Source of the DNA: Clostridia bacterium
Lineage (GTDB): Bacteria > Bacillota_A > Clostridia > Monoglobales > Monoglobaceae
Direction of reading: 5' to 3'
Assembly (NCBI GenBank): GCA_017436135.1
Contig: JAFSDQ010000013.1
Coordinates: 1 to 42,178, forward strand
DNA length: 42,178 nucleotides
Shown here: one piece after another, positions 5,729 to 21,766 of the stretch
Position numbering within the stretch: the stretch's first letter is position 1
How the letters are laid out: each line of letters begins with the position of its first letter
Notes under the pieces: generated by a model
What the model was told of the DNA's origin: nothing
Database searches by the model: none
The model's input: the letters and a program-made list of their open reading frames with translations, nothing else
Made by a program: the position numbers and the translations under genes

Positions 5729-7153
5729 TTATTTCTTTCTGGGTATCGGAAGAGTAATGGTTACCCTTGTATATTTTGTATATTCACTCTCTATTTTTAT
5801 TTTTCCTTTATAACTTTCTATAATTTCCTTTGCAATAGAAAGTCCAAGACCTGTTCCTCCTCTGTCTCGGCTTCTTGCTTCATCCTCAACTCTGTAAAAT
5901 CTTTCAAATATATGTCCAAGCTTGTTTTCAGGAATTCCCCATCCTGTATCTTCCACCTTTATATATATTTCATTATGGAGCTTACCTGAAAAAATTCTTA
6001 TTTTATCTCCCTTTGATGTGTATTTGATTGAGTTTGATATAATATTTTTTACAGCTCTTTCAATATCTGCTCTGTTTCCTCTGAACATAGGTATCTCATT
6101 CATTCTGTTATAAGTTAAATCAAGCTCTTTTTTCTCTGCCTCAAGCTTAAATGTTTCCGCAAGAGAGGACAAAACATCATCAATTGAAAATTCTTCTGTA
6201 CTTTTTGGAATGGCTTTCATTTCAAATTTACTTATATCTAAAAGATTATTTATAAGCTCTGTCATTTTTCCTGATTCCTGATAAACAATGTTTAAAAGAT
6301 TAGCAGTCATTGCCTTATCATCAATATAGCTGTTTAAAACTGTTTCTGTATAAGAACTGATAACAGTAATCGGTGTTTTAAGCTCATGAGAAACATCTGC
6401 AACAAACTTTCTCATTGCGTTCATTACATTAAACTGCTCTGTTACATCCTCAAACATACAAACAACACCAAGGCTTCTTTCGCTTTCAATCTTGAAAGGG
6501 ATAAACCATACCTTTATATGTTTATCACCGCTTTTAATTTCTTCTTCTCTTATTTTTCCTTTATTTATATAAACGAATTCTCCAAATTTTACATCGATAT
6601 TTAAGCTTTTAAAAAATTCATCAAATAAAATATTTTCCTGATTTTCTTCTAAATTCAAAATCTTTTTTGCAGAAGAATTTATTTGTACAAGGCTTTGATT
6701 GTTATTAAAGGTCATGATACCGTTATTTATATTTTCAAGAATAACCTCTACAAGATGTTTTTCGGAGTTCATTTTTTGTATGCTTCCTGCCATAACAAAG
6801 CCCATATGATTTATGGCACGGATCAGGTCTTTAAATTCTTCACATTTTATATCGTCAATATTTGAATAAAGCTCACCTTTTTCAAGTCCCTCTGCTCTTT
6901 TTGTAATTTTTTTTACCGGAACAGTAACGCTTCTTGATAATAAAAGAGCAGTAAGTAAAGAAAAAACAACTGTTGGTATTAAACAAAAAGATAAAATAAT
7001 CAAGCTGTTTAAAATATCTTTTCTTATCATATATGGAGAATATTCATAAAAGTTTATTTTTCCAAAGGTTACAAGGGCAAAAATAACAAATAGCAAAACA
7101 ATCCCATATAATAAACATTTTATAAAAAAATTAAAAAAGATTTTATTTTTCAT
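5729..7153 (-). CDS. orphan PhoR/WalK-like sensor histidine kinase
   Basis: The 474-residue protein has two membrane helices (about 12-33 and 48-72) around a very short outside loop, then a HAMP linker (about 73-125), a PAS domain (about 130-240), and a HisKA domain with the phospho-acceptor His256 in FVADVSHELKTP. The HATPase domain has N box NIISNSIKYT, G1 box VEDTGWGIP and G2 box GGTGLGLSIAKEI. The short loop suggests it senses the membrane or an intracellular PAS ligand. No response regulator gene lies on either side, whereas kinases of this type usually follow one. The gene has its own promoter and CGGAG ribosome site. Confidence 0.92.
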   Translation of the reverse strand: MKNKIFFNFFIKCLLYGIVLLFVIFALVTFGKINFYEYSPYMIRKDILNSLIILSFCLIPTVVFSLLTALLLSRSVTVPVKKITKRAEGLEKGELYSNIDDIKCEEFKDLIRAINHMGFVMAGSIQKMNSEKHLVEVILENINNGIMTFNNNQSLVQINSSAKKILNLEENQENILFDEFFKSLNIDVKFGEFVYINKGKIREEEIKSGDKHIKVWFIPFKIESERSLGVVCMFEDVTEQFNVMNAMRKFVADVSHELKTPITVISSYTETVLNSYIDDKAMTANLLNIVYQESGKMTELINNLLDISKFEMKAIPKSTEEFSIDDVLSSLAETFKLEAEKKELDLTYNRMNEIPMFRGNRADIERAVKNIISNSIKYTSKGDKIRIFSGKLHNEIYIKVEDTGWGIPENKLGHIFERFYRVEDEARSRDRGGTGLGLSIAKEIIESYKGKIKIESEYTKYTRVTITLPIPRKK

Positions 7154-8288: not shown

Positions 8289-10817
8289 ATGAAAAATTAC
8301 TACAGCGGAAGCATAAAAAAGAGTGACAGAATAACACGGCTTGTTGATAATTTGTTTAAAACAAAGCCTGAAATTGAAGCAAGCCGTGCAGTATTACTTA
8401 CAGAGAGCTATAAGAAAACAGAGGGAGAGCCTGTTATTTTAAGAAGAGCAAAGGCTTTTAAAAATATAACAGAAAATATTCCCATTGTAATCAGAGATGA
8501 GGAATTGATTGTTGGAAGTCAGTGTATTGCACCCAGAAGCTGTCAAACCTTCCCTGAATATTCTTATACCTGGCTTGAGGAAGAGTTTGAAACTATCGAA
8601 ACAAGGTCAGCAGACCCCTTTGTAATTACAGAGGATACAAAGAAAAAGCTCAAGGAGGCAAACAGCTATTGGGCTGGAAAGACAACAAGCGAGCTTGCTA
8701 CCTCTTATATGGACGAGAGGGCAAGAGCTGCAATTGAACATAACATATTTACCCCAGGAAACTATTTTTATAACGGAGTAGGACATGTTACTGTAAATTA
8801 TGGTGAGGTTTTAAAAATCGGCTATAAGGGAATAAAGGAAAAAGCAAAGGCTGCTCTTGGAAAGTTAAAGGTTACAGACCCTGATTGCTCTGTAAGACGT
8901 GCATTTTTAGAGGCAGTAATCATAAGCTGCGATTCTGCAATAAATTATGCAAAGAGATATTCTGCTCTTGCAAAGCAGCTTGCAGATAAAGAGAGCAACC
9001 CTGTAAGAAAAGCAGAGCTTATTGCTATATCAGAAAACTGTAATAAAGTACCTGAAAACGGTGCAGAAAGCTTTTGGGAGGCATGTCAGTCTTTCTGGTT
9101 TATACAGATGCTTATTCAGCTTGAAGCCAGCGGACACTCAATTTCTCCCGGACGCTTTGACCAGTATATGTATCCTTATTATAAGGCGGATATGGACAGC
9201 GGAAAAATTACGAGAGAATATGCACAGGAGCTTATAGACTGTGTATGGATAAAGCTCAATGATATGACAAAGGTTCGCGACCTTGCCTCTGCAGAGGGCT
9301 TTGCAGGCTACAGTATGTTCCAGAACCTCATTGCGGGTGGACAGACTCCTGACGGCAGAGATGCCACCAATGACTTGTCCTTTATGTGTATAGAGGCATG
9401 TATGCATGTTATGCTTCCGCAGCCATCTTTCTCCGTAAGAGTATGGAACGGCACACCTCACGAATTTATGCTCAAAGCGGCAGAGCTTACAAGAACAGGT
9501 ATTGGTCTTCCTGCTTATTACAATGATGAGGTAATTATTCCTGCCCTTATAAACCGCGGACTTACCATGGAGGACGCAAGGGACTACAACATTATCGGTT
9601 GTGTAGAACCTCAAAAGTCGGGTAAAACTGACGGCTGGCATGATGCGGCATTCTTTAATATGTGCCGTCCTTTGGAGCTTGTATTCTCAAATGGTATGGA
9701 CGAGGGCTGTCAGGTAGGTATAAAGACAGGAGAGCTTCCTGAATTTAAGACCTTTGATGATTTTTATGATGCTTACAAGGCACAGACCTCTGATATGATA
9801 GAGCTTATGGTAAATGCGGACAATGCAATCGACCTTGCCCATGCAGAGAGATGTCCTCTCCCATTCTTGTCTTCAATGGTTGAGGATTGTATCGGCAGAG
9901 GAAAGAGTGTACAAAACGGTGGTGCTGTTTATAACTTCACAGGTCCCCAGGGCTTTGGTGTTGCAAATATGGCAGACTCCATGTATACCATAAAGAAGCT
10001 TGTTTACGAGGATAAAAAGTTTACTTTATGTGAGCTTAAAGAGGCGCTTCAAAACAACTACGGCAAGGCAAACTCTGATAAGTATACAGAAATGGCGGCA
10101 GTTGAGGTTTTGAAGAGAATGACAGATGCAGGCATTGAAATAAATGACCAGGTTGTGGCAGAGGTTATAAGCCAGGTTAAAAATTCCGATATTCCTGCAG
10201 ATAAAAAGACAAAATACCAGAACATTTTAAGTATGATAGATGCTCTTCCCAAGTTTGGTAACGATAACGAGGAGATAGACGCTCTTGCAAGAGATGTGGC
10301 TTATACATATACAAAGCCCGTTGAAAAGTACAAGAACCCAAGAGGCGGAAGATATCAGGCTGGACTTTATCCTGTTTCTGCAAATGTTCCCCTTGGAGCA
10401 CAGACAGGGGCAACACCTGACGGCAGACTTGCACACACACCTGTTGCAGACGGTGTTTCTCCCTCTGCAGGTAAGGATATAAACGGACCTACTGCATCTG
10501 CAAACTCTGTTTCCCGTCTTGACCACTTTATTGCATCAAACGGAACATTGTTTAATATGAAGTTCCACCCATCTGCTCTTGCAGGCAAGTCGGGGCTTGA
10601 AGGCTTTGTTTCTCTGGTTAGAGGCTACTTTGACCAAAAGGGAAGCCACATGCAGTTTAATGTAGTAAGCCGTGAAACCTTGCGTGACGCACAGAAAAAT
10701 CCTGATAAGTACAGAAGCCTTGTTGTAAGAGTTGCAGGCTACAGCGCTCTCTTTACAACACTTTCAAAATCACTTCAGGATGATATTATTAACAGAACAG
10801 AACAATCAAATTTGTAA
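8289..10817 (+). CDS. glycyl radical 1,2-propanediol (diol) dehydratase, B12-independent
   Basis: The 842-residue enzyme has the glycyl radical loop RVAGYSA (Gly817) and the thiyl-radical site GCVEP (Cys438, Glu440). Residues lining the active site of B12-independent glycerol/diol dehydratases are kept in order: His166 (GVGHVTVNYG), His283-Ser284 (SGHSISPGRFDQY) and Asp452 (GWHDAAFFN). This separates it from choline lyase and pyruvate formate-lyase. It removes water from 1,2-propanediol to give propionaldehyde. It is about 55 residues longer than the 787-residue Clostridium butyricum glycerol dehydratase. Most of the excess seems to be a charged helical insert near residues 595-643. No encapsulation peptide is evident. 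The ribosome site is GGAGG. Confidence 0.95.
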   Translation: MKNYYSGSIKKSDRITRLVDNLFKTKPEIEASRAVLLTESYKKTEGEPVILRRAKAFKNITENIPIVIRDEELIVGSQCIAPRSCQTFPEYSYTWLEEEFETIETRSADPFVITEDTKKKLKEANSYWAGKTTSELATSYMDERARAAIEHNIFTPGNYFYNGVGHVTVNYGEVLKIGYKGIKEKAKAALGKLKVTDPDCSVRRAFLEAVIISCDSAINYAKRYSALAKQLADKESNPVRKAELIAISENCNKVPENGAESFWEACQSFWFIQMLIQLEASGHSISPGRFDQYMYPYYKADMDSGKITREYAQELIDCVWIKLNDMTKVRDLASAEGFAGYSMFQNLIAGGQTPDGRDATNDLSFMCIEACMHVMLPQPSFSVRVWNGTPHEFMLKAAELTRTGIGLPAYYNDEVIIPALINRGLTMEDARDYNIIGCVEPQKSGKTDGWHDAAFFNMCRPLELVFSNGMDEGCQVGIKTGELPEFKTFDDFYDAYKAQTSDMIELMVNADNAIDLAHAERCPLPFLSSMVEDCIGRGKSVQNGGAVYNFTGPQGFGVANMADSMYTIKKLVYEDKKFTLCELKEALQNNYGKANSDKYTEMAAVEVLKRMTDAGIEINDQVVAEVISQVKNSDIPADKKTKYQNILSMIDALPKFGNDNEEIDALARDVAYTYTKPVEKYKNPRGGRYQAGLYPVSANVPLGAQTGATPDGRLAHTPVADGVSPSAGKDINGPTASANSVSRLDHFIASNGTLFNMKFHPSALAGKSGLEGFVSLVRGYFDQKGSHMQFNVVSRETLRDAQKNPDKYRSLVVRVAGYSALFTTLSKSLQDDIINRTEQSNL

Positions 10818-10895: not shown

Positions 10896-10924
10896 TTCGT
10901 AAATAAAAAATATTGGAGAACATT

Positions 10925-11713
10925 ATGGACAACAAAGATATAAAAGGCAGAATTTTTAATATACAAAAATTTTCTGTTCATGACGGACCGGGAATCAGAA
11001 CAATTGTATTTTTAAAAGGCTGCCCTTTGAGATGCAGATGGTGTTGCAACCCTGAATCTCAAAGCTATGAAATCCAAAAAATGAATATTGCAGGCAAAGA
11101 AAAAATCGTAGGCAAAGACGTGACTGTAGGAGAGGTTATGGAGGATGTGCTTAAAGATATGCCCTATTTCCGCAGAAGCGGAGGCGGAATTACTCTGTCA
11201 GGGGGCGAGGCTCTTTTTCAGCCTGACTTTGCAGAGGGACTTCTGCGTGAGGCAAAGGAGTACGGAATCAGCACAGCCATAGAATCTACTGCAAACGCAC
11301 CCTTTGAAATAATCGAAAGGCTGCTTCCTTTCCTTGATATATACCTTATGGATATAAAACATATGAACAGCGAAAAGCATAAGGAATATACCACCAAGCC
11401 AAATGAGCTTATACTTTCAAATGCCAAAAGGATTGCGGCATATCAGGGAACAAAGCTTATTATAAGAGTTCCCGTTATACCCACCTTTAACGATACCGAG
11501 GAAGAGATTTCCGAAATTGCAAGATTTGCAGCATCCCTTGAGGGGGTAGAGGAAATGCATCTTCTTCCTTATCATCGGATGGGAGAGGATAAGTACAAAG
11601 GTCTTGGAAGAGAGTATTTAATGAGTGGAATTTACCCGCCCCCCGATGAAAAAATGCAGGCACTTAAAAGAGCGGCATCACGAGAGGGAATAAAAGTTCA
11701 AATCGGCGGATAA
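10925..11713 (+). CDS. glycyl radical enzyme activase (radical SAM), short form
   Basis: The 262-residue protein carries the radical SAM cluster motif CX3CX2C at Cys33, Cys37 and Cys40, the GRE-activase signature VHDGPGIRT just before it, and the SAM-binding SGGEALFQ motif. It generates the glycyl radical on the diol dehydratase next door. The ferredoxin-like insert with two extra [4Fe-4S] clusters found after the first motif in many activases is missing: only about 20 residues without Cys separate CNPES from the VGEVMEDV helix, as in pyruvate formate-lyase activase. The ATG at 10925 has GGAG seven bases before it. A TTG at 10913 is less likely. Confidence 0.93.
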   Translation: MDNKDIKGRIFNIQKFSVHDGPGIRTIVFLKGCPLRCRWCCNPESQSYEIQKMNIAGKEKIVGKDVTVGEVMEDVLKDMPYFRRSGGGITLSGGEALFQPDFAEGLLREAKEYGISTAIESTANAPFEIIERLLPFLDIYLMDIKHMNSEKHKEYTTKPNELILSNAKRIAAYQGTKLIIRVPVIPTFNDTEEEISEIARFAASLEGVEEMHLLPYHRMGEDKYKGLGREYLMSGIYPPPDEKMQALKRAASREGIKVQIGG

Positions 11714-11721
11714 GGAAAAAC

Positions 11722-11857
11722 CAACGGAACGGATGAATCCGTTCCCTACGATGTAATCTGTGGGATTACAAAATTTGTAGGGAATGCATTTATGCATTCC
11801 GCAACAGAAAAAACACCCCACAATGTAGGGGAGAGGTTCCACCCCATCCCGCGACAG
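11722..11857. repeat. composite palindromic repeat between activase and shell gene
   Basis: It contains CGGAACGGATGAATCCGTTC (a near-perfect palindrome), GGAATGCATTTATGCATTCC, and a GTAGGGGAGAGGTTCCACCCC segment, each with relatives at 12776-12992, 36868-37075 and 41960-42178. No coding frame uses it. Confidence 0.7.
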
Positions 11858-11871
11858 AAAGGAAGAATGGT

Positions 11872-12240
11872 ATGACAGAACGTGAATTTCAAGATAAAAT
11901 GAGAATTATACAAGAGCTTGTACCGGGTAAGCAGATTACCCTTGCTCATATAATTGCAAATCCTGATAAAATTCTCTATCAAAAGCTGGGACTTGACCCT
12001 GCTGTAGATTACGCAAAATCCGCAATAGGAGTTGTTACTATCTCCCCTGCGGAAACCGCCATTATAATTGCAGATATTGCAATTAAGTCATCAGGGGCAG
12101 AGCTTGGCTTTGTTGACAGATTCAGCGGTACACTTATAGTAACAGGTACTGTATCAGAGGTAGAGGCGGCACTTCGGGCTCTTTGCGAATATGTAAAGGA
12201 AAAGCTTGGCTTTACTGTTTGCGATATAACAAAGACTTAA
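11872..12240 (+). CDS. EutS/PduU-type circularly permuted BMC shell protein
   Basis: The 122-residue protein starts with the family's characteristic N-terminal strand region, ELVPGKQITLAHIIANP, followed by the permuted BMC core (AIGVVTISPAETAIIIADIAIKSSG and DRFSGTLIVTGTVSEVEAAL). EutS and PduU hexamers have a beta-barrel capping the pore, so this tile may be closed or serve as a docking point. EutP-type GTPases usually neighbour EutS/PduU, as here. The start has AAAGGAAG about nine bases upstream. Confidence 0.92.
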   Translation: MTEREFQDKMRIIQELVPGKQITLAHIIANPDKILYQKLGLDPAVDYAKSAIGVVTISPAETAIIIADIAIKSSGAELGFVDRFSGTLIVTGTVSEVEAALRALCEYVKEKLGFTVCDITKT

Positions 12241-12256
12241 TCGGGAATCAATAATT

Positions 12257-12682
12257 ATGAAGAAAATAATATTTATGGGCAGAACAGGATGCGGAAAAAC
12301 ATCTCTTACCCAGGCTATCAGAGGACAGAAAATACATTATCATAAAACACAATATATTAACTACCATGACATTATTATAGATACCCCCGGGGAATATGCA
12401 GAAAATCATCATCTTGGCAGAGCCCTTGCCCTTTATTCCTACGAGGCGGATTTAGTGGGCTTGCTCCTGTCCTCAACAGAGGTTTACTCCCTTTATCCTC
12501 CAAATGTAACCTGTGCGGCAAACCGTGAGGTTATAGGAATTGTAACCAAAATCGACAAAGAGGGCGCAAACCCCGACAGAGCAGAGCGATGGCTCCGCCT
12601 GGCAGGCTGTAAAAAGGTTTTCCGCTTAAGCTCAAAGACAGGACAAGGGATAGAAGAGCTTCTTGATTACCTGAAAACATAA
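12257..12682 (+). CDS. eutP: EutP/PduV-type small GTPase
   Basis: The 141-residue protein has a P-loop GRTGCGKTS (residues 8-16), a DTPGEY G3 motif near residue 44 and TKID as G4 near residue 103. EutP/PduV proteins are tied to microcompartments. PduV has been reported at the shell surface and linked to compartment movement, but a molecular role is not established. The ribosome site is weak (CGGGAA), so expression may be low or coupled to the shell gene that ends 16 bases earlier. Confidence 0.9.
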   Translation: MKKIIFMGRTGCGKTSLTQAIRGQKIHYHKTQYINYHDIIIDTPGEYAENHHLGRALALYSYEADLVGLLLSSTEVYSLYPPNVTCAANREVIGIVTKIDKEGANPDRAERWLRLAGCKKVFRLSSKTGQGIEELLDYLKT

Positions 12683-12730
12683 AAACAAAGAAAAAACCAA
12701 GAAAAAACCACAAAAACAAAGAAAAAACTA

Positions 12731-12759
12731 TTGACATAAACAAAATAAGGTGATAAAAT
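12731..12759 (+). promoter_or_regulatory. internal promoter ahead of the aldolase gene
   Basis: A perfect TTGACA at 12731-12736 and TAAAAT at 12754-12759 are separated by 17 bases. It lies after the GTPase gene and before the repeat at 12776, about 280 bases upstream of the aldolase start. It could split the locus into two transcription units. Confidence 0.65.
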
Positions 12760-12775
12760 AATAATGCAGAAAATT

Positions 12776-12992
12776 CGCGGTTTGTCGGATTGAATCCGCC
12801 TGTGCAAATGAGTCCTCCTCATTGAGGAGGGTGGCACGCAAAGCGTGACGGGAGGAGGTTGCAAATTATTTTACACACTCCCACCGACAAACCTATCGGT
12901 TTGCCACCTCCCTCACAGAGGGAGGCAAAGTAAGGGGGGCTATGCCGAACCCTGCAATGTAGGGGAGGGGTTCCACCCCCTCCCGCATCAAA
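12776..12992. repeat. composite palindromic repeat, inverted copy
   Basis: This 217-base block is the reverse-oriented counterpart of the repeats at 36930-37075 and 42070-42178. It holds GGCACGCAAAGCGTGACGGG, CCGACAAACCTATCGG, CCTCCCTCACAGAGGGAGG and CCCCTCCC-type palindromes in the same order on the other strand. It fills most of the 355-base gap between the GTPase and aldolase genes and encodes no protein. Confidence 0.8.
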
Positions 12993-13037
12993 GATGAAGA
13001 ATAATTAACTTTAAATAAAGAAAAGGAGATTTTGAAA

Positions 13038-13844
13038 ATGGTATCAGAATTTGAAATCAAAAAACAAATTTGTGACATTGGAAAGCGTATCTACAACCGT
13101 AACATGGTTGCAGCAAATGACGGAAACATTTCCGTTAAACTCAATGACAACGAATTCCTTTGCACACCCACAGGCGTAAGTAAGGGCTTTATGACTCCTG
13201 AATACATCTGTAAGGTAGACGCAGAGGGTAATGTTATTCAGGCAAACGGGAACTTCAAGCCTTCGTCAGAGATTAAGATGCACATGAGAGTTTATAAGCA
13301 TCGTCCTGATGTAAACGCAGTTGTTCACGCTCACCCGATTTATGCAACAAGCTTTGCAATTGCAGGAATTCCCCTTACACAGCCCATTATGCCCGAGGCT
13401 GTAATCGCACTTGGTTGTGTTCCCATTGCAGAATACGGAACACCTTCAACAGACGAAATCCCCGATGCAGTAGAGAAGTATTTGCAGTACTATGATGCAG
13501 TTTTGCTTGAGAGCCACGGTGCGCTCACATATTCTGATTCTCTTCTTGCAGCATATCACAAGATGGAATCTGTTGAATTCTATGCAGAGCTTCTCTTTAA
13601 GTCAAGACAGCTTGGCGGACCTAAAGAATTCTCTGAAGAGAGAGTACAGCAGCTTTACGAAATTCGTCGTAAGTTTGGTATGTCAGGTAAGCACCCTGCT
13701 GACCTTTGCCCCAACGCAAAGAACGGTAAGGCAAGCTGCCACAACTGCGGCGGCAACTGCGGCGGCAAGGGTAAGGGCAAGTCTGAAAATGATGCACTTA
13801 TCTCTGCAATTACCCAAAAGGTTATGGAACAGCTTTCCAAATAA
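13038..13844 (+). CDS. class II (fuculose/rhamnulose-1-phosphate) aldolase with C-terminal encapsulation helix
   Basis: The 268-residue protein has the class II aldolase/adducin fold with zinc ligands His97, His99 (VVHAHP) and His160 (LLESHGAL) and catalytic Glu78 (KPSSEIK), as in fuculose-1-phosphate aldolase. It should cleave L-fuculose-1-P or L-rhamnulose-1-P to DHAP and lactaldehyde, and is the marker of fucose/rhamnose microcompartments. After the catalytic domain (about 1-215) comes a Cys/Gly/Lys-rich linker with Cys224, 234, 237 and 241, then a final amphipathic helix (DALISAITQKVMEQLSK) typical of encapsulation peptides. The ATG at 13038 is eight bases after AGGAGA and is preferred to a TTG at 13032. 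Confidence 0.93.
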   Translation: MVSEFEIKKQICDIGKRIYNRNMVAANDGNISVKLNDNEFLCTPTGVSKGFMTPEYICKVDAEGNVIQANGNFKPSSEIKMHMRVYKHRPDVNAVVHAHPIYATSFAIAGIPLTQPIMPEAVIALGCVPIAEYGTPSTDEIPDAVEKYLQYYDAVLLESHGALTYSDSLLAAYHKMESVEFYAELLFKSRQLGGPKEFSEERVQQLYEIRRKFGMSGKHPADLCPNAKNGKASCHNCGGNCGGKGKGKSENDALISAITQKVMEQLSK

Positions 13845-13862
13845 CAAAAGGGCGGTGCAGAA

Positions 13863-14393
13863 ATGGACAGACAACAGCTTTCGGAAATTGTCAGACGCGT
13901 TATGAGCGAAAGCCAACAGAGCGCCGTAGCTGAAGTCGGCACAGGAAGTCCTGTGCAAAGCTTTTCATCCGAAACTTCGGAAATGACCCTTTCGATTGCA
14001 AAGGCGTTGATAGAAAAGGTTTTGCAAAGGGCGGCTGAAATTGGTGTAAACGGAGTAGCGGCTGTTTCAAACAGCGGGGCTCGGCCTGTTGCTGTAGAGT
14101 GTATGGATAATTCCTATATTGCAAGCTATGACATTGCGGTAAACAAGGCATATACCTCTGCGGCACTTAAGATGAAAACCTCTGCTTTGAAGACCCTTGC
14201 GGCACCCGGAGGTTCTCTCTATGGAATACAGCACACCAATCAGGGACAAATTGTTATTTTCGGCGGAGGAGTTCCTCTGATGGTAAACGGAAAAGTTATA
14301 GGCGGCTTTGGCGTAAGCGGTGGCACAGAAGAGCAGGACACCTACCTTGGTGACTATGCAGAAAGTGTTTTCGCAGAGATGATGTCAGTCTGA
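13863..14393 (+). CDS. HbpS/GlcG-like (PduO C-terminal, DUF336) protein
   Basis: The 176-residue protein has an N-terminal amphipathic helix (QQLSEIVRRVMSES, an encapsulation-type signal), a linker, and from about residue 40 a DUF336/GlcG domain with GARPVAVECMDNS, the GGVPL segment and the closing GGFGVSGGTEEQD. In PduO this domain is fused to the adenosyltransferase and can bind heme. In HbpS it is a stand-alone redox-linked sensor. Here it stands alone in a B12-free pathway, so corrinoid handling is unlikely and its role is unknown. The ribosome site is GGGCGG. Confidence 0.85.
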   Translation: MDRQQLSEIVRRVMSESQQSAVAEVGTGSPVQSFSSETSEMTLSIAKALIEKVLQRAAEIGVNGVAAVSNSGARPVAVECMDNSYIASYDIAVNKAYTSAALKMKTSALKTLAAPGGSLYGIQHTNQGQIVIFGGGVPLMVNGKVIGGFGVSGGTEEQDTYLGDYAESVFAEMMSV

Positions 14394-14420
14394 TTTATAG
14401 AAATTTTTTAGAAAGGATAG

Positions 14421-15632
14421 ATGGCGATGGAAATGAATGAAAAAAACATCGAGCAAATCGTACAGCAGGTATTGTCACAGATGAGCGGTATGTCAGCTCC
14501 CAAGGCTGCAGCAGCTGCTGGGGATATCCCCAAAACATCTAAAGTGGCTATGCTTACTGCCCTTGAGAACTACGAAATAAAAGAATTCCCCATCCCCGAG
14601 CTTGGCGATGACGACATTCTTGTAAAGGTAGAGGGCTGCGGTGTTTGCGGTACGGATGCACATGAGTTTAAGCGTGACCCCTTTGGTCTTATTCCTGTTG
14701 TTCTCGGACACGAGGGTACAGGCGAGATTGTTAAGATGGGTAAAAATGTAAAAAAAGACAGTGCAGGCAAGCCCCTCAATATTGGTGACAAGGTTGTTAC
14801 CTGTATGATATTTAAGGATTGCCCCGATATCACAATGTTTGATTTAAACAAGCAGAATGTTGGTGACGGTGCAGAGGTTTACGGACTTATCCCTGATGAT
14901 GACATTCATCTTAACGGATGGTTTGCAGACTATATAGTAATCAGAGGCGGTTCTACTATATTTAATGTAAGTGACCTTGACCTTGATTCAAGAATTTTGA
15001 TAGAACCCTGTGCGGTTCTTATTCACGCAGTAGAGAGAGCAAAGACAACAGGAATCCTCCGCTTTAACAGCAGAGTTGTTGTTCAGGGCTGCGGACCTAT
15101 CGGTCTTATCTGTATTGCGATTCTCCGCACAATGGGTATTGAAAACATTGTTGCAGTAGACGGCGAGCAGAAGCGTCTTGACTTTGCAAAGGAGATGGGT
15201 GCAGACAAGTCTGTAAACTTCAAGGACCACAAGGGAATTGAGGCTCTCTCCGGTGCAGTAAAGGATGCTTTCGGCGGATATTTGGCAGATTTTGCGTTCC
15301 AGTGTACAGGTTCTCCTGTTGCCCACGCAAATATCTATAAGTTTATAAGAAACGGCGGCGGCCTTTGCGAGCTTGGTTTCTTCATAAACGGCGGAGACGC
15401 AACAATCAATCCCCACTTTGACATATGCTCAAAGGAAATAACAACAGTTGGCTCATGGGTATATACTCTTCGTGATTATGCTACAACATTTGACTTCTTA
15501 AAGAGGGCAAACGCAATAGGACTTCCTATGAAGAAGCTTATCACACACAGATATCCCCTTGAACAAATAAATGAGGCACATAAAACAAACCTTGCAATGG
15601 AAGGCTTGAAGATTGCCGTAATCAATGAATAA
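14421..15632 (+). CDS. zinc-dependent MDR alcohol dehydrogenase targeted to the microcompartment
   Basis: The 403-residue protein has an N-terminal amphipathic helix (MNEKNIEQIVQQVLSQM) and Ala-rich linker, then a medium-chain dehydrogenase with catalytic zinc ligands in GCGVCGTDAHE and GHEGTGE and a Rossmann fold at QGCGPIGLICIA. The four-Cys structural zinc loop is not present. It probably reduces propionaldehyde to propanol, or lactaldehyde to 1,2-propanediol, recycling NADH inside the shell, where many Pdu systems use the iron-dependent PduQ. ATG 14421 lies close to AAAGGA. A second in-frame ATG at 14427 has better spacing and could be the true start. Confidence 0.88.
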   Translation: MAMEMNEKNIEQIVQQVLSQMSGMSAPKAAAAAGDIPKTSKVAMLTALENYEIKEFPIPELGDDDILVKVEGCGVCGTDAHEFKRDPFGLIPVVLGHEGTGEIVKMGKNVKKDSAGKPLNIGDKVVTCMIFKDCPDITMFDLNKQNVGDGAEVYGLIPDDDIHLNGWFADYIVIRGGSTIFNVSDLDLDSRILIEPCAVLIHAVERAKTTGILRFNSRVVVQGCGPIGLICIAILRTMGIENIVAVDGEQKRLDFAKEMGADKSVNFKDHKGIEALSGAVKDAFGGYLADFAFQCTGSPVAHANIYKFIRNGGGLCELGFFINGGDATINPHFDICSKEITTVGSWVYTLRDYATTFDFLKRANAIGLPMKKLITHRYPLEQINEAHKTNLAMEGLKIAVINE

Positions 15633-15669
15633 TAATTAAAACTATATTATAAATAGGAGGAAATTTAAA

Positions 15670-15945
15670 ATGGCACAAGAAGCATTAGGAATGGTAGAAA
15701 CAAGAGGCTTGGTTGCAGCAATTGAGGCAGCCGATGCAATGGTAAAGGCAGCAGAGGTTACTCTTATCGGTACCGAGAAAATCGGTTCAGGTTTGGTAAG
15801 TGTTATGGTTCGCGGTGATGTTGGCGCAGTTAAGGCAGCTGTAGAAGTTGGCAGCGCAAACGCATCAAGACTTGGTGAGTTGGTTGCAACACATGTAATC
15901 CCCAGACCTCACAACGATGTTGAGAAGATTTTGCCGACACTTTAA
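15670..15945 (+). CDS. BMC-H shell protein (PduA/EutM type), copy 1
   Basis: The 91-residue hexameric shell protein begins [20 protein letters not shown] and covers a complete single BMC (PF00936) domain, ending [13 protein letters not shown]. Hexamers of this type tile the facets and their central pore passes small substrates. The pore loop reads [10 protein letters not shown]. It is nearly identical to the core of the next gene, differing mainly at residues 25, 29 and 33 and near 56, which points to recent duplication. AGGAGG sits eight bases before the ATG. Confidence 0.97.
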
Positions 15946-15956
15946 TTTTTGTAAGT

Positions 15957-16234
15957 TAGGGTGACAGAAGATATCCGAACCGCGCCTTAAACAGCGTAAT
16001 TTCGGTATATTTTAGCTCGTCATCTTTGCAAGGCGTCAGCCTTGCTTCATCTTCCGCACTAAAATCCCCTCAAAATTTCATCCGTTTAAGGTCGAAGAAT
16101 TTTCAAAGAGGGAATTTTATGCTTATGCAAGGCAAAAACACAGGTAATCCTTGACGGATTACCGAGTATTTTAACGTGGCAGAAGCGAAAATTAACCATT
16201 GAAAATCGTGGTTCAGATAACTTCTGTCACCCTA
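15957..16234. mobile_element. MITE-like element with terminal inverted repeats and TA flanks
   Basis: The left end TAGGGTGACAGAAG (15957-15970) is the exact reverse complement of the right end CTTCTGTCACCCTA (16221-16234), and the match continues as TATC with one mismatch. If the repeats start at GGGTGAC, each end is flanked by TA, the target duplicated by Tc1/mariner-IS630 transposases. The 270-odd bases between hold no long frame but several small palindromes, such as GCAAGGCgtcaGCCTTGC near 16037 and TAATCCttgacGGATTA near 16146. It separates the two BMC-H genes. Confidence 0.72.
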
Positions 16235-16251
16235 GGTTAGGTGACTGTATA

Positions 16252-16701
16252 ATGGCAGTGAAAAAGACTAATGGTGCAGCGGCAAAGCCTGCAGCAGCAA
16301 AGCCTGCAGCAAAAGCAGCGCCTGCAGCAAAGCCTGCGGCACCTTCAAAAAAAGTTGCTCCAAAAGCAACAGTAAAACCTGCGGAGGAAACCGCAAAGGT
16401 AATTGTAAAGGAGGAAAAAATTATGGCACAGGAAGCATTGGGAATGGTTGAAACAAGAGGTTTGGTTGCAGCTATCGAAGCTGCTGATGCAATGCTCAAA
16501 GCAGCAAACGTTACTTTGGTTGGAACCGAAAAGATTGGTTCAGGTCTTGTAAGTGTTATGGTTCGCGGTGATGTTGGTGCAGTTAAGTCAGCTGTAGAAG
16601 TTGGCAGCGCAAACGCATCAAGACTCGGCGAATTAGTTGCTACACACGTAATTCCGAGACCTCACAACGATGTCGAGAAGATTTTACCGACACTCAAATA
16701 A
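16252..16701 (+). CDS. BMC-H shell protein, copy 2, with optional Ala/Lys/Pro-rich N-terminal extension
   Basis: Two starts are credible. ATG 16252 has AGGTGA seven bases before it and gives a 149-residue protein whose first 57 residues are almost only Ala, Lys, Pro, Val and Thr (repeats of AAKPA). ATG 16423, in the same frame, has AAAGGAGGAAAAAATT before it and gives a 92-residue standard BMC-H nearly identical to copy 1. Both forms may be made, much as PduB and PduB' come from one gene. The extension should be disordered and basic. It could project from the facet, bind nucleic acid or tether cargo, none of which the sequence proves. Confidence 0.93.
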
Positions 16702-16716
16702 GATTTTGGTTTTTAT

Positions 16717-16745
16717 TCTCTGCGGTGCGATAAGCACCGCAGAGA
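16717..16745. other. strong intercistronic hairpin before the vertex-protein gene
   Basis: TCTCTGCGGTGC (16717-16728) pairs perfectly with GCACCGCAGAGA (16734-16745) around a GATAA loop. The bases after it are GAAAGCC rather than a T run, so it is not a clear terminator. An mRNA-stabilising or processing element that sets shell-protein ratios is plausible. Confidence 0.55.
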
Positions 16746-16770
16746 GAAAGCCTGAAATGAGGTAAATGAT

Positions 16771-17031
16771 ATGATTATTGGTAAGGTTACGGGGAGCGTA
16801 GTTTCTACCCGAAAAAATGAGAACTTAATTGGAAATAAGTTCATGATAGTAGAGCCGATAGATTGCGACAAGAAGGTTGTTGCCATTGACAATATCGGCG
16901 CAGGTATAGGCGAATATGTGCTTGTTGCCACAGGAAGTGCGGCAAGAGTCGGATGCGGACAAGGAAGCTCGCCCATTGATGCGGCTATTGTCGGTATTAT
17001 TGACGACGGAAAAGATATATTTGAAAAATAA
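16771..17031 (+). CDS. EutN/CcmL-type BMC vertex protein (BMC-P)
   Basis: The 86-residue protein fits the EutN/CcmL family: start MIIGKVTGSVVSTRKNENLIG, a central VAIDNIGAGIGEYVLVATGSAAR stretch and closing DAAIVGIIDD. Pentamers of this protein cap the twelve corners of the icosahedral shell. Few copies are needed, in keeping with its position after the intercistronic hairpin. It is the only vertex gene seen. The ribosome site is a modest GAGGTAA. Confidence 0.94.
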   Translation: MIIGKVTGSVVSTRKNENLIGNKFMIVEPIDCDKKVVAIDNIGAGIGEYVLVATGSAARVGCGQGSSPIDAAIVGIIDDGKDIFEK

Positions 17032-17055
17032 TTTTGAAGAGGGGATGCAGACAGT

Positions 17056-18396
17056 ATGACTATAAACGAGCTGGCAAACCTTTTGAGAAAAAACGGAATT
17101 ACAGGTGCAGGGGGAGCAGGGTTTCCGTCATACGCGAAGCTTAATGAAAAGGCGGATACAATCATCCTTAACTGTGCTGAATGTGAGCCTATTCTCAAAC
17201 TGCATCGTCAAGTTCTCGAAAAGTATGCCTTTGAAATAATAAGCACACTCAATACAATTGCAGAAGCTGTTGGTGCAACCTCGGTTATAATTGCCCTGAA
17301 AAAGTCTTACGAAGGCGCAACAGCAGCCGCAACGGCAGTTGTTCAGGATTTTAAAAACACAGAAATAAAATTTTTGCCCGAACAATATCCCTCGGGCGAC
17401 GAAGTGGTTACTATATACGAAACCACAGGCAGAGTAGTCCCTCCGGGGAGTATTCCCATTTCGGTTGGGGTAATAGTATTTAACCCCGAAACAATACTTA
17501 ATGTTTACTATGCAATTGAAGAAGACCGACCTGTAACACATAAGTTTGTAACTGTTGCAGGAGAGGTAAAAAACCCTAAAACAGTATATGTGCCCATTGG
17601 AATAAGCAATAAGGACCTTATTTCTTTAGCAGGTGGGACCACCGCAAAGGATGTTGCTCTTATCAGCGGCGGACCTATGATGGGAAAAGAGGTTGGCATA
17701 TACGATACAGTGACAAAGACAACAAATGCGATTTTGGTTTTACCCAATGACCATTATATTATACAAAGAAAACGAGGAAGCGTGCAGATTGACACAAAAA
17801 GAGCCATGAGCTCTTGCTGCCAGTGCAGAATGTGTACGGATTTGTGTCCCAGAAATCTTCTTGGCCATCCAATAGAGCCAAGCGAGTTTATGCACGCCGC
17901 AAGCAGCGGAACAATCAGAGATGTGAAGCCTATGATTAACACTATGTTCTGCTCGGGCTGCGGAGTATGCGAAATGTATGCCTGTACCCAGGGGCTGTCA
18001 CCCCGAAAAATGATACTTGAATATAAAGACGGACTTCGCAAAAACGGAATTACACCTCCAAAAGATGTAAAACCGGGGGCTGTTTCTCCCAAGAGAAAAT
18101 ACCGCGGAGTGTCAAAAGAGAGGCTGACCTCAAGGATAGGGCTTACCAAATATGAAGTAGATGCCCCTCTTGAGGAAACAGAAATAAAGATAAAGGAATA
18201 TAAAATTTCCCTTACACAGCATATTGGGGCACCTGCCGTTCCTTGCGTAAAGGCAAAGGATAAGGTTGTGGCAGGCCAGGTAATAGGCGAGGCAAAGCCA
18301 AATGCCCTTTCTGCTAATATTCATACACCGGTAAGCGGCAGTGTAGTAAGGGTAAGCGACAAATATATTGTTATTAAACAGGAGGGTGAAAAATGA
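17056..18396 (+). CDS. pduS: PduS-like (RnfC-related) electron-transfer protein
   Basis: The 446-residue protein has the RnfC-like N-terminal GITGAGGAGFPSYAKL motif for flavin/NADH binding, a SLBB-like segment, then two ferredoxin motifs: CCQCRMCTDLCP near residues 255-265 and CSGCGVCEMYAC near 299-310. A lipoyl-like C-terminal segment ends in HTPVSGSVVRV. In B12-dependent Pdu organelles PduS reduces cobalamin. Here no cobalamin enzyme exists, so a role in passing electrons through the shell, perhaps regenerating NAD+ or feeding the activase, is more likely (inference). Its stop overlaps the next start as ATGA, implying tight coupling with the PduT-like protein. Confidence 0.92.
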   Translation: MTINELANLLRKNGITGAGGAGFPSYAKLNEKADTIILNCAECEPILKLHRQVLEKYAFEIISTLNTIAEAVGATSVIIALKKSYEGATAAATAVVQDFKNTEIKFLPEQYPSGDEVVTIYETTGRVVPPGSIPISVGVIVFNPETILNVYYAIEEDRPVTHKFVTVAGEVKNPKTVYVPIGISNKDLISLAGGTTAKDVALISGGPMMGKEVGIYDTVTKTTNAILVLPNDHYIIQRKRGSVQIDTKRAMSSCCQCRMCTDLCPRNLLGHPIEPSEFMHAASSGTIRDVKPMINTMFCSGCGVCEMYACTQGLSPRKMILEYKDGLRKNGITPPKDVKPGAVSPKRKYRGVSKERLTSRIGLTKYEVDAPLEETEIKIKEYKISLTQHIGAPAVPCVKAKDKVVAGQVIGEAKPNALSANIHTPVSGSVVRVSDKYIVIKQEGEK

Positions 18397-18941
18397 GTAA
18401 GGCAATAGGAATGGCAGAATACCAGACCGTGTCTACAGGTATTGAGGCGGCAGATTTAATGATAAAGACCGCAGATGTAGATGTTATTGAAGCCCAAACT
18501 GTTTGTCCGGGTAAATATATAATCATCATTACAGGTGAATTAAGTGCGGTAAAGGCATCGGTAGATGCAACCCGTGCAAGGTTCGGAGAAAAGCTTATAG
18601 ACAGCTTTGTTCTGGGAAACCCTGATGAATCTATTTTCCCGGCTATATATGCCACAAACGAGATAAAAAATAAGAGTGCCCTTGGTGTTCTTGAAACATT
18701 TTCGGCAGCAACAATGATTGTGGCAGGAGATGTGGCGGCAAAAACCGCAGAGGTAGAGCTTATAGAGATGCGTCTTGCAAGAGGTATGTGCGGAAAATCC
18801 TACATGCTGATTACAGGAGAGGTTGCGGCGGTTGCGGCGGCAATCGAAAAGGCAAAGGTAGCGGCAGGGGACAAGGGAATGTTCCTTGACAGCTCTATTA
18901 TCGCAAATCCCGACGATAAGCTCTGGGAAACAATATTATAG
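18393..18941 (+). CDS. pduT: PduT-like tandem-domain shell protein with Fe-S ligand Cys38
   Basis: The 182-residue protein holds two BMC domains (about 4-88 and 95-180), forming a trimeric pseudo-hexamer (BMC-T). In the first domain the pore loop reads AQTVCPGK, placing Cys at position 38, the residue that binds a [4Fe-4S] cluster in the pore of PduT. The second domain has MCGKSYM at the matching loop. Overlap by four bases with the PduS-like gene supports a PduS-PduT electron path across the shell. Confidence 0.92.
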   Translation: MSKAIGMAEYQTVSTGIEAADLMIKTADVDVIEAQTVCPGKYIIIITGELSAVKASVDATRARFGEKLIDSFVLGNPDESIFPAIYATNEIKNKSALGVLETFSAATMIVAGDVAAKTAEVELIEMRLARGMCGKSYMLITGEVAAVAAAIEKAKVAAGDKGMFLDSSIIANPDDKLWETIL

Positions 18942-18983: not shown

Positions 18984-20384
18984 ATGGTAGTTGATGAAAA
19001 GTATATAAGTGAGATAGTTGCAAATGTTGTAAACAGCATTGCAGACAAAGCAAGTGAGGAGAAACAGCCAAAGCAAAAGGGTGTTTTTGATACCATGAGT
19101 GAGGCTCTCGCAGCAGTTGAGGTTGCATACAAGCAGTTCCGCAGCTACAGCGTAGAACAGAGAGAGAAGATGATTTCTGTAATCAGACGCCTTACCCTTG
19201 AAGAAGCGGCAAAGATGGCAATTCTCGGTGTAGAGGAAACAGGAATGGGAAGAGTTTCCGATAAAATCATCAAGCATCAGCTTGTTGCCAACAAGACCCC
19301 GGGAACAGAGGATTTAAGTCCCTCTGTTATGACAGGTGACCAGGGTCTTACCCTTATCGAAATGGCTCCCTTTGGTGTTATAGGAAGTATCACTCCCTCC
19401 ACCAACCCCAGCGAAACTGTTATTTGTAACTCTATGGGTATGATTGCAGGGGGTAATGCAGTTGTTTTCAATCCTCACCCCAACGCAAAGAAAACTGCCA
19501 ACTATGCAGTTGACCTTGTAAACAGAGCTATTCTTGAAGCAGGCGGACCTGAAAACCTTGTTGTTTCAGTAAAGAACCCCACTCACGACAGCTCCAACGA
19601 GATGATGAAGTCACCTATTGTCAGAATGCTTGTTGCAACAGGTGGCCCCGGAGTTGTTAAGGCGCTTTTGTCATCAGGCAAAAAGGCAATCGGTGCAGGT
19701 GCAGGTAACCCCCCTGTTATCGTTGATGATACAGCAGATGTTAAAAAGGCAGGTGCAGATATTGTTGCAGGTGCAAGCTTTGACAACAATCTTCCCTGTA
19801 TCGCAGAGAAAGAATGTTTTGCTTTCCGTAACATAGCAGACGAATTGATAGAGAGTATGACCAAAAACGGTGCATACCTTGTAAAAGGTGCAGATATTGA
19901 TAAGCTGGTTAAGCTCTGCCTTGTTGAAAAAGACGGCAAGTACTCAATCAACAAGGATTGGGTAGGTAAGGACGCAGGCAAGTTCTTAAAGGCAATCGGT
20001 ATTGATGCAGACCCAAGACTTATTATATGTGAAGTTCCCAACGAGCATCCCTTTGTTCAGGTAGAAATGATGATGCCGATTCTGGGTATTGTTCGTGTTG
20101 ACAATATAGAAGAGGCAATAAAATATGCGGTTGCAGCCGAGCATGGCAACAGACACTCTGCACACATTCACTCAAAGAATGTTGACAACCTTACAAACTT
20201 TGCACGTGCGGTTGAAACTACTATTTTTGTAAAGAACGCACCGTCTTATGCAGGTATAGGCGCAGGGGGCGAGGGTTATACAACCTTTACAATCGCAGGT
20301 CCTACAGGAGAGGGTCTTACTGCGGCTCATTCCTTTACCAGACAGAGAAGATGTGTAATGGTGGATAATTTCCATATAGTATAA
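18984..20384 (+). CDS. pduP: CoA-acylating propionaldehyde dehydrogenase (PduP/EutE family)
   Basis: The 466-residue enzyme starts with an amphipathic encapsulation helix (YISEIVANVVNSIADKA) and a short Lys/Gln linker to about residue 33, then the aldehyde dehydrogenase fold with catalytic Cys272 in FDNNLPCIAEKE and nucleotide-binding ITPSTNPSET. It oxidises propionaldehyde to propionyl-CoA with NAD+ and CoA inside the compartment. PduL downstream regenerates CoA and the alcohol dehydrogenase regenerates NAD+. AGGAGG precedes the ATG by eight bases. Confidence 0.95.
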   Translation: MVVDEKYISEIVANVVNSIADKASEEKQPKQKGVFDTMSEALAAVEVAYKQFRSYSVEQREKMISVIRRLTLEEAAKMAILGVEETGMGRVSDKIIKHQLVANKTPGTEDLSPSVMTGDQGLTLIEMAPFGVIGSITPSTNPSETVICNSMGMIAGGNAVVFNPHPNAKKTANYAVDLVNRAILEAGGPENLVVSVKNPTHDSSNEMMKSPIVRMLVATGGPGVVKALLSSGKKAIGAGAGNPPVIVDDTADVKKAGADIVAGASFDNNLPCIAEKECFAFRNIADELIESMTKNGAYLVKGADIDKLVKLCLVEKDGKYSINKDWVGKDAGKFLKAIGIDADPRLIICEVPNEHPFVQVEMMMPILGIVRVDNIEEAIKYAVAAEHGNRHSAHIHSKNVDNLTNFARAVETTIFVKNAPSYAGIGAGGEGYTTFTIAGPTGEGLTAAHSFTRQRRCVMVDNFHIV

Positions 20385-20440: not shown

Positions 20441-21088
20441 ATGAAAGCACTTGGAATGATAGAGGTTTACAGCTTTACAATGGCTCTTGTTGTTGCAGAT
20501 ACTGCAGCAAAGGCGGCAGATGTAAAGATAATAGCCTTTGACAGAAACAGACCTATAAGTCCTGATGTTCCTGCCCCTCTTGTTATGGTAGTAAAGATAG
20601 AGGGCGAGGTTGCGGCTGTAGAAGCGGCAGTTGCGGCAGGGGTTGCCAGAGCAAAAAGCGAGAACAAGTACATTGTCTCCCACATAATACCACGGCCTGA
20701 TGACCAGACAGAGGCGATGGGATACCTTCTTGATATCAACAGAGATAAATATAACAAAAAGCTGCCAAAGAACTTCAGAGGTATGGATATAGATATAACT
20801 TCCCCCAAAATGGCTTTCGGCATTATAGAAATAGAGGGTCTTGTTGCGGCGATAGAGGGTCTTGATGCAATGGTTAAAGCGGCAGATGTCCGTATTTTAC
20901 ATACAGAGAAAAGACTTGGCGGCAGACTTGTTACCCTTATTGTAGGGGGAGAGGTTTCTGCGGCAAAGGCTGCTGTTGATGCAGGGGAAAAGGCGGCATC
21001 AAAGATTGGTAAAATTTTTGGCAAAGAGGTTATACCAAGCCCCCATGGCGAGCTTGCCAAGTTTATTGATTTGGAAATAAAGGATTAA
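20441..21088 (+). CDS. tandem-domain BMC shell protein (BMC-T)
   Basis: The 215-residue protein contains two BMC domains: residues 1-90 (MKALGMIEVYSFTMALVVADT) and 125-210 (MAFGIIEIEGLVAAIEGLDAMVKAADV), joined by a linker of about 35 residues rich in Lys/Asp. The second domain closely resembles the BMC-H copies in this locus, while the first is more divergent. It has no cysteine, so it is not a PduT-type cluster carrier and may be a gated or structural tile. A small hairpin GCGACAggatTGTCGC and a good AAGGAG site lie just upstream. Confidence 0.92.
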   Translation: MKALGMIEVYSFTMALVVADTAAKAADVKIIAFDRNRPISPDVPAPLVMVVKIEGEVAAVEAAVAAGVARAKSENKYIVSHIIPRPDDQTEAMGYLLDINRDKYNKKLPKNFRGMDIDITSPKMAFGIIEIEGLVAAIEGLDAMVKAADVRILHTEKRLGGRLVTLIVGGEVSAAKAAVDAGEKAASKIGKIFGKEVIPSPHGELAKFIDLEIKD

Positions 21089-21127: not shown

Positions 21128-21766
21128 ATGATAGACAAGAGTATAGTAGAGCAAGCCGTAAAAGCTGCTGTTGCTCAGGTGCGCAGTGACCACGGTCAGA
21201 TAAAAATAGGCGTGTCCCAAAGACACATACATCTTTCCAGAGCAGATTTGGATGTTCTCTTCGGCAAAGGATACGAGCTGACAAAGAAAAAGACTCTTAT
21301 GGGCAGAGAATATGCTGCAGAAGAGGTTGTTACCCTTGTTGGCCCCTCCTTAAAGGCTATTGAAAAGGTAAGAGTTCTGGGCCCTGTACGAGAGAAGACA
21401 CAGGTGGAGATTTCAAGAACGGATACCTTTATACTTAAGGTAAGCCCCCCTGTTCGTCCCTCGGGTAAGGTTGAGGGCTCTGAAAGAATGGTAATCGTAG
21501 GCCCCAAGGGCAGCGTATATCTTAAAGAGGGTGTTATAATTGCCAACCGTCACATTCATCTGACTCCCGAATATGCGGAGAACAAAGGTATAAAGGACGG
21601 AGATTTGGTTGATGTTCTGGTAGAGGGTGTAAAGCCTACCAAGTTCTTTGACGTTCAGGTAAGAGTAAGAGATGATTTTAATGTAGAGATGCACATTGAT
21701 ACAGACGATGCAAATTCTGCAGGACTTAAGAATGGTGACCTTGTACAGATTATAAACAAGAAATAG
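21128..21766 (+). CDS. pduL: phosphate propanoyltransferase PduL
   Basis: The 212-residue protein has the PduL signature: two zinc-binding His motifs, QRHIHLS near residue 35 and NRHIHLT near 140, in a duplicated barrel. It converts propionyl-CoA and phosphate to propionyl-phosphate, freeing CoA for the aldehyde dehydrogenase. The first ~20 residues (KSIVEQAVKAAVAQVRS) form an amphipathic encapsulation helix. No propionate/acetate kinase follows, so the final ATP-yielding step must be encoded elsewhere. Confidence 0.95.
   Translation: MIDKSIVEQAVKAAVAQVRSDHGQIKIGVSQRHIHLSRADLDVLFGKGYELTKKKTLMGREYAAEEVVTLVGPSLKAIEKVRVLGPVREKTQVEISRTDTFILKVSPPVRPSGKVEGSERMVIVGPKGSVYLKEGVIIANRHIHLTPEYAENKGIKDGDLVDVLVEGVKPTKFFDVQVRVRDDFNVEMHIDTDDANSAGLKNGDLVQIINKK

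Follow-up and report, generated by a model that had tools for sequence, protein, structure and literature searches.

A conserved dual-start BMC-H shell gene in GRM5-type microcompartment loci of Clostridia

A BMC-H shell gene with two starts in one reading frame lies in the window, the whole 42,178-nucleotide stretch of Clostridia bacterium DNA analysed here. Comparison with related loci identifies it as a dual-start BMC-H gene, conserved in compartments of the GRM5 type; this reading is well supported as sequence biology, and a conditional proposal on function is added to it. The gene probably makes two shell tiles from starts that have both been kept in evolution, one bare and one carrying an N-terminal arm. 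On these sequence grounds, the manufacture of two products from one gene is considered very probable. To the whole explanation, in which two products are made, the arm lies on the outer face of the shell and it disperses or positions the compartments, a probability of about 0.5 is assigned.

Compartment spacing, inheritance and the tuning of shell composition are poorly known outside Pdu, Eut and carboxysomes, and a dual-start major shell gene found across many Clostridia GRM5-type loci would provide a direct handle on compartment number, place and size. The armed tile would also be a natural route to peptide display on shell exteriors.

Two in-frame starts in one shell gene

The gene and its immediate surroundings comprise the following features.

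15670..15945, + strand: plain BMC-H paralogue (PF00936; 87/91 identity)
15952..16239, + strand: MITE-like element (tentative name); its 51-nt terminal inverted repeats are imperfect (from sequence)
16239..16244, + strand: AGGTGA, Shine-Dalgarno-like, for the long (armed) form (sequence, duplex energy)
16252..16422, + strand: arm of 57 codons, Ala/Lys/Pro-rich, predicted disordered (sequence, pLDDT)
16407..16414, + strand: internal Shine-Dalgarno (SD) AAAGGAGG in the arm codons K-E-E (sequence, energy, codon bias)
16423..16701, + strand: BMC-H domain, PduA/EutM-like, independently startable at ATG 16423 (PF00936, PDB matches)

The upstream start, ATG 16252, follows AGGTGA at a spacer of 7 nt and opens a frame of 150 codons including the stop, translated as 149 aa. 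Residues 1-57 include 19 Ala, 13 Lys and 7 Pro and carry a net charge of +9. The in-frame ATG 16423 follows AAAGGAGG at a spacer of 8 nt and opens a 92-residue BMC-H, which shares 87 of 91 residues with the product of the gene before it. Calculated duplex energies are -8.4 kcal/mol for AGGTGA and -11.7 kcal/mol for the internal site. A sequence-only reading of this DNA had described the first start, with AGGTGA seven bases upstream and a 57-residue Ala/Lys/Pro beginning, and had seen in the second a plain BMC-H nearly identical to its neighbour; both descriptions were recovered on re-reading the window.

The armed protein has one PF00936 domain above the curated cut-off, matched in a single stretch (residues 62-137, 7.8e-30, 103.1 bits against a cut-off of 24.5), and is classed as a BMC-H accordingly. 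In a PDB sequence search, its PduA matches start from residue 58-59 on, and the arm is not covered by any of the 48 PDB matches listed, which begin at residue 54 or later.

The MITE-like element fills the gap between the two BMC-H genes. RNA folding of 15940-16260, which spans it, gives a z of -8.9; a search with Rfam at gathering thresholds found nothing within 11700-17100. Partial matches to the element occur elsewhere in two of six related genomes. In the window lineage it could have shifted the balance between plain and armed transcripts. The idea that the arm is peculiar to the window contig and arose through this element was rejected, since in related loci such as L198-L202 there is no such gap and the armed gene lies close behind the plain one.

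A GRM5-type locus

The surrounding genes form a GRM5-type (fucose/rhamnose, glycyl-radical) microcompartment locus on the + strand.

8289..10817, + strand: glycyl radical enzyme, PFL-like (profile matches)
10913..11713, + strand: glycyl radical enzyme activating enzyme, radical SAM (Pfam)
11872..12240, + strand: BMC shell protein, PduU/EutS-like, named from position and length (PF00936)
12257..12682, + strand: PduV/EutP GTPase (PF10662)
13032..13844, + strand: class II aldolase, fuculose/rhamnulose-phosphate type (profile matches)
13863..14393, + strand: HbpS-like protein (PF03928)
14421..15632, + strand: zinc alcohol dehydrogenase / lactaldehyde reductase (Pfam), used as the GRM5 sampling marker
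16771..17031, + strand: BMC-P, EutN/CcmL (PF03319)
17056..18396, + strand: PduS/RnfC-like oxidoreductase (profile match)
18393..18941, + strand: BMC-T, PduT-like (TIGR02526, 5.2e-34, 117.5 bits against a cut-off of 250.3)
18984..20384, + strand: CoA-acylating aldehyde dehydrogenase, PduP/EutE-like (profile match)
20441..21088, + strand: second tandem-BMC-domain shell protein, BMC-T (profile match)
21128..21766, + strand: PduL phosphotransacylase (profile match)
also in the locus, + strand: DeoR regulator (profile match)

As defined in the available text of PMC6325248, GRM5 comprises a glycyl radical enzyme, its activating enzyme, a class II aldolase, lactaldehyde reductase, PduS and PduT. This gene set is present in full in the window, with the matches to RnfC-type PduS and to PduT falling below the NCBIfam cut-offs. 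The activating enzyme (266 aa) shows PF04055 and PF13353 only, without the ferredoxin-like pfam00037 insertion, which fits GRM5; the glycyl radical enzyme, expected in GRM5 to be a 1,2-propanediol dehydratase, passes only the broad PFL2-3 subfamily model.

The tandem shell protein at 20441-21088 is distinct from PduT and sits after the aldehyde dehydrogenase; close matches occupy the same place in three other loci (L019, L025 and L038). The aldehyde dehydrogenase and PduL are located elsewhere in many other GRM5 loci. Neither tandem-domain shell protein of the window attains the cut-offs of the PduB models.

Distribution of the arm

The sequence-only reading had suggested searching other GRM loci for armed BMC-H genes with an internal site, and two sets of loci were used for this. 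In the first, species genomes were scanned with the armed protein and the loci of the best 80 of 583 confirmed stretches were retained, a choice biased to arms. An arm was called where its start had an SD energy of at most -6.5 (including a bonus of 1.5 for ATG), its length was at least 25 aa and its KAPTE value exceeded 0.4. This rule finds an arm in 35 of the best 80 loci and in the window, giving 36 arms whose SD strength is partly selected by the rule itself. Two arms missed by it (L033 and L056) were spotted by eye and added by hand to the SD-energy count.

Since the first scan favours arms, a second sampling was made with the neighbouring lactaldehyde reductase as marker. Among 392, 394 and 6 genomes, 50, 20 and 4 were positive; 40/50, 20/20 and 4/4 of these were taken, plus G003, G005 and G006, the ten omitted having 56-58% marker identity. 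In the 67 marker regions, BMC-H genes between lactaldehyde reductase and BMC-P were classified with thresholds of -6.0, 22 aa and 0.4, under which arms with weak starts would score as absent. Four incomplete regions of the 67 (L152, L163, L190 and L196, the last of them armed) were dropped from the tallies.

An N-terminal arm is present in 39 of 57 complete loci sampled independently of the arm, and the internal start is kept in 38 of those 39. These counts omit seven rows from the biased set (L147, L179, L201-L204 and the window); including them, 46 of 64 are armed. The suggested search thus returned many further examples. The armed gene comes second in a pair of PduA-type genes in 39 of 47 cases. 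Inspection of the upstream frames in 14 of the 18 armless complete loci revealed no arm in frame with the last BMC-H, the exception among armless loci being those with a C-terminal tail, where the tail of the neighbouring gene lies upstream of the last BMC-H, behind a stop.

A quick tree built from the marker enzyme shows the arm to be clustered, at 8 changes where shuffles need 15.7 (starred branches require at least 3). It occurs on either side of the midpoint root, and in 12 of 12 rows, the window included, of the smallest starred set that holds the window. This pattern fits an old arm with several losses, within the limit that change counts cannot separate gain from loss. The arm is not universal, being absent from more distant loci, and, with 18 of 57 complete loci lacking it, it is dispensable in some GRM5-like loci.

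Database proteins show the same feature. Among the best 120 of 7947 matches listed, 12 near ones were examined and all are of the long form; such single gene models may conceal a second likely product. One of them, of 149 aa, differs from the window protein by a single substitution, within the arm, and the other 11 have arms shorter by 1-9 residues. In all 12 the arm starts with MAV[K/R]KTNG and ends with K-[E/D]-E-K, with varying Ala/Lys/Pro repeats between.

Conservation of the internal ribosome site

The internal start, taken as the start codon with the best SD no more than a few codons from where the domain begins, was compared in 64 non-redundant arms, drawn from 81 arms of both sets as one per cluster at 0.7 similarity; one arm without an internal start codon (L197) was left out beforehand. 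This start is ATG in all 64. AGGAG or GGAGG occurs within the last 20 nt of the arm in 63, the remaining one having GGGGG, and in 49 of the 64 GGAGG stands exactly 13 nt before the internal ATG. The internal SD has a median energy of -11.2 kcal/mol, and 0.8% of 2242 other in-phase arm positions reach -8.5. It exceeds the arm SD in strength in 56/64.

Codon usage at the junction is strongly biased. Codon -4 is Glu in 61 of the 64 arms and is written GAG in 61/61, as against 59/269 elsewhere in arms (p 4e-33); Lys at codon -5 is AAG in 48/49, as against 156/482 elsewhere (p 8e-21). The K-E-E junction of the window reads AAG GAG GAA. When 36 arms are recoded synonymously, the internal SD energy averages -5.8, compared with -11.2 observed, and 11 of the 36 reach p <0.05 individually. 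Two in-frame starts, each with a ribosome site, are thus conserved in relatives, and the comparisons indicate that the internal start is under selection.

Individual loci illustrate both states. The L. phytofermentans assembly (L027/L203) has, in the locus DNA examined, no PduA-type BMC-H other than the armed gene, so that the internal start would have to supply the bare tiles of this locus, barring a gene elsewhere. In L197 (3957-4325, - strand) the armed BMC-H lacks both the internal ATG and its SD, and two plain copies follow. L056 (about 5919-6200) likewise has an armed BMC-H without the internal Met and two plain copies. In these two loci the roles have apparently been split into separate genes. 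In L187 the plain BMC-H upstream of the armed gene (about 3690-4080 in reading orientation) is frameshifted, whether really or by assembly error, and this gene was excluded from the evidence.

The arm as a fast-evolving coding sequence

A chance open frame upstream of the domain was considered and rejected on the contrast in frame length, the in-frame indels and the synonymous evidence. The stop-free frame upstream of BMC-H is shorter than 20 codons in 112 of 123 unarmed genes (80 loci and the window), against 29-117 codons in 36 armed genes, a group defined in part by an arm length of at least 25. Each arm also has an SD of its own, itself a criterion of selection. In 21 nucleotide-aligned pairs, chosen by BMC-domain DNA alone and with one genome pair entering twice (L001/L004 = L204/L138), arm indels are multiples of three in 31 of 31 cases; pairs with a single gap are forced to threes as both arms are in frame, and the multi-gap pairs alone are informative. 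Frame-breaking changes in close relatives, named beforehand in the sequence-only reading as contrary evidence, were looked for and none was seen.

Over the 21 pairs the pooled pS is 0.43 and the pooled pN 0.27. In the close pair L012/L155, 42 codons hold 9 synonymous differences and 1 nonsynonymous one, and in L013/L147 there are 2 of each in 40 codons. In several wider pairs (for example L019/L200, L161/L162 and L165/L166) pN is about equal to pS, so that the exact sequence of the arm appears weakly constrained. As judged from these comparisons, the arm is coding and fast-evolving: its frame and broad composition are kept and its exact sequence is not.

The 36 arms of the first set are 26-114 aa long (median 45) and consist of Lys (20%), Ala (17%), Thr (12%), Glu (12%) and Pro (6%) among others. 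Net charge is positive in 34 of the 36, with a median of +4.5; two are net negative and several near neutral, which weakens the case for a purely electrostatic role. A start motif, MA-[E/T/D]-x-K, recurs. A motif like KAP[A/G/S]KT[V/I/A]xR occurs in the drifting arms of L012, L014, L015, L016, L075, L146 and L149 and is a candidate binding motif.

The claim of the sequence-only reading that one gene yields a bare and an armed tile is supported by these comparative tests. Conservation of the internal SD and ATG, synonymous bias confined to the junction, indels that keep the frame and the presence of the arm throughout the window clade all argue for it.

Predicted structure and side of the shell

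In two AlphaFold runs, arm residues 1-42 have pLDDT <50. The first run was poor (mean pLDDT 59.9), and the second, of the monomer, reached about 82-92 over most of the BMC domain. The first element of the known BMC-H fold is expected to be a strand. Both runs built it as a helix, apparently a mis-modelling, so that only the low confidence of residues 1-42 was used.

BMC-H termini are reported to lie on the concave side of the tile (PMC5534457). In a solved GRM2-derived shell, as in shells solved earlier, it is the convex side that is turned to the lumen (PMC6971018). With the termini concave and the concave face outward in known shells, the arm should lie outside; by this analogy its placement on the outer face is likely.

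Possible roles of the arm

Initiation at 16252 would produce a BMC-H bearing a 57-residue disordered, basic Ala/Lys/Pro arm, and initiation at 16423, from the strong SD in the last arm codons, would produce a bare BMC-H. As the internal site is the stronger, bare subunits would be expected to outnumber armed ones, giving mixed hexamers with few arms. The arms would protrude from the concave face into the cytosol as sparse, mostly positive bristles that may disperse the compartments or help to position them. Positioning could involve weak contact with the nucleoid, a proposal already made for the PduK and EutK tails. Such a role in dispersal or positioning, which is drawn by analogy, is put forward tentatively, at slightly less than even odds.

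When PduK or EutK is missing, BMCs are found mostly at the cell poles (PMC9132943, PMC12487888), and the authors of the PduK study suggested that the PduK tail works from the outward-facing concave side (PMC9132943). The present protein resembles both in combining a single BMC domain with a tail, which is assigned to the outer face in the proposal for PduK and is positive in EutK (PMC9132943, PMC12487888). The PduK and EutK tails differ in being C-terminal and of other sequence, and no dual start is mentioned for them in the available text of these papers (PMC9132943, PMC12487888). The window protein does not fit the EutK/PduK pattern of a BMC domain followed by a C-terminal tail: its BMC domain stops about 12 residues before the C-terminus, and it scores 72.2 with the EutK model against a cut-off of 218. 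A role in dispersal or positioning is preferred over a tether to the core since the chemistry of the arm and its predicted topology are closer to PduK and EutK.

A bolder version, doubtful as a whole, is that an N-terminal, translation-tuned equivalent of the PduK/EutK outer tail arose independently in GRM5-type loci. The hidden start would set the number of arms per shell, the resulting sparse charged surface brush would space the compartments and let them ride the nucleoid, and in a few loci the tail would have relocated to the neighbouring BMC-H, at its C-terminus.

PduB, which is a BMC-T, offers a different model, in which the gene is the GRM5 counterpart of PduB/PduB' and its arm, placed in the lumen, holds cargo as a tether between shell and core. 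Salmonella Pdu sets the precedent of one shell gene with two products, forms with and without an N-terminal extension, of 37 aa in that case (PMC9132943), and PduB(1-37) is required for the linkage of shell and core (PMC9132943, PMC12108088). Both tandem shell proteins of the window fall below the PduB cut-offs, and the C. phytofermentans gene table, as available, assigns no gene to PduB (PMC3557285), which speaks for this model. A lumenal tether nevertheless appears unlikely, because the termini of BMC-H proteins are on the concave, outward face (PMC5534457, PMC6971018). Moreover, the PduB extension is signal-sequence-like, with PduB1-22 a predicted amphipathic helix that binds the core (PMC12108088), whereas arm residues 1-42 are modelled as structureless and the present gene encodes a single-domain BMC-H with an Ala/Lys/Thr/Glu/Pro arm of low hydrophobicity. 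Large hydrophobic residues (L/I/M/F/W/Y) make up a median of 5% of the arms, as against 13-30% of five termini from the same locus judged to be encapsulation-peptide-like, though hydrophobic moments overlap (0.15-0.68 for arms, 0.49 for the window arm and 0.44-0.60 for those termini). The protein lies outside the PduB family, having a single BMC domain and neither TIGR04501 nor NF011944 among its matches at E 0.001.

HU/H1-like proteins carry basic Ala/Lys/Pro tails and suggest that the arm might instead bind nucleic acid, tying the compartment to DNA or RNA for nucleoid partitioning or local translation. The predominance of net positive arms agrees with this, as does the positive tail of EutK, which according to its authors could bind nucleotides and be ParB-like (PMC12487888). 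The charge density is modest, at +0.16 per residue in the window arm, Glu accounts for 12% of all arm residues and some arms are neutral or acidic, all of which speak against such binding and make it of low probability.

It is improbable that the arm is a leader only, a drifting, weakly translated stretch that couples ribosomes to the internal site and leaves the armed protein functionless. The greater strength of the internal SD in 56/64, the rapid drift of the arm (with pN equal to pS in some pairs) and its absence from some loci would be expected of such a leader. Against it, plain BMC-H genes mostly do without one, the Lys/Ala/Thr/Glu/Pro-rich composition and the MA-[E/T/D]-x-K start are kept, and in L197 the arm has outlasted the loss of the internal start. 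Finally, it is very improbable that translation yields the long form alone, with the internal site a mere relic and the junction retained for the peptide K-E-E-K-M: the junction peptide is indeed conserved as well (Lys -5 in 34/44 and Glu -4 in 42/44 distinct arms), but the AAG/GAG bias in synonymous choices marks the junction and is absent elsewhere in the arm, and L197 lost its SD along with the Met.

Relation to earlier descriptions

CcmM (M58/M35) and CsoS2 (CsoS2A/B) are carboxysome scaffold proteins that each occur in two forms from one gene, by frameshifting in the case of CsoS2. The likeness to the present gene lies in the production of two forms of a microcompartment protein from a single gene; CcmM and CsoS2 differ in being lumenal scaffolds, not hexamer tiles.

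The statement in the earlier reading that no characterised BMC-H is known with this kind of arm needs qualification, in that PduK and EutK are BMC-H proteins with flexible, disordered or positive C-terminal tails. In addition, the extended gene model is already visible as Cphy_1182 in the GRM5 locus of Clostridium phytofermentans, where a footnote records similarity to PduA at residues 73-161 only (Petit et al. 2013, PMC3557285). Beyond this footnote, no discussion of an arm or an internal start was found in the available text of that paper, and a C. beijerinckii paper, in its available text, names Cphy_1182 merely as a best match (PMC6384099). The L. phytofermentans assembly has the same type of gene at the place matching Cphy_1182. 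A BMC catalogue mentions BMC-H extensions of up to 200 residues, most commonly C-terminal (PMC8217296), and one N-terminally extended BMC-H, from another BMC type, is mentioned in a paper on a web tool (PMC9052549). Among the literature matches listed, none deals in its title or abstract opening with a dual-start BMC-H or an arm of the present kind; most subscription literature lay outside this search.

C-terminal tails in armless loci

In five loci (L024, L028, L031, L157 and L183) the last BMC-H has no N-terminal arm and a neighbouring PduK-like BMC protein has a C-terminal tail rich in Lys/Ala/Pro or Lys/Thr. With thresholds of 35 aa and a KAPTE of 0.55, set after the list had been inspected, such tails occur, among the 65 first-set loci flanked by both markers, in 3 of 28 without an arm and 0 of 37 with one (Fisher p 0.075); the second set gives 2 of 18 armless and 0 of 46 armed loci. 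L028, on a contig without the marker gene, is outside this count, and L071, which is counted, is a more distant type of locus. The two features were not found together in the loci counted, a pattern no more than suggestive of relocation of the tail between genes. In L157 and L028 the C-terminal tail is in frame with the next gene, with one stop between them.
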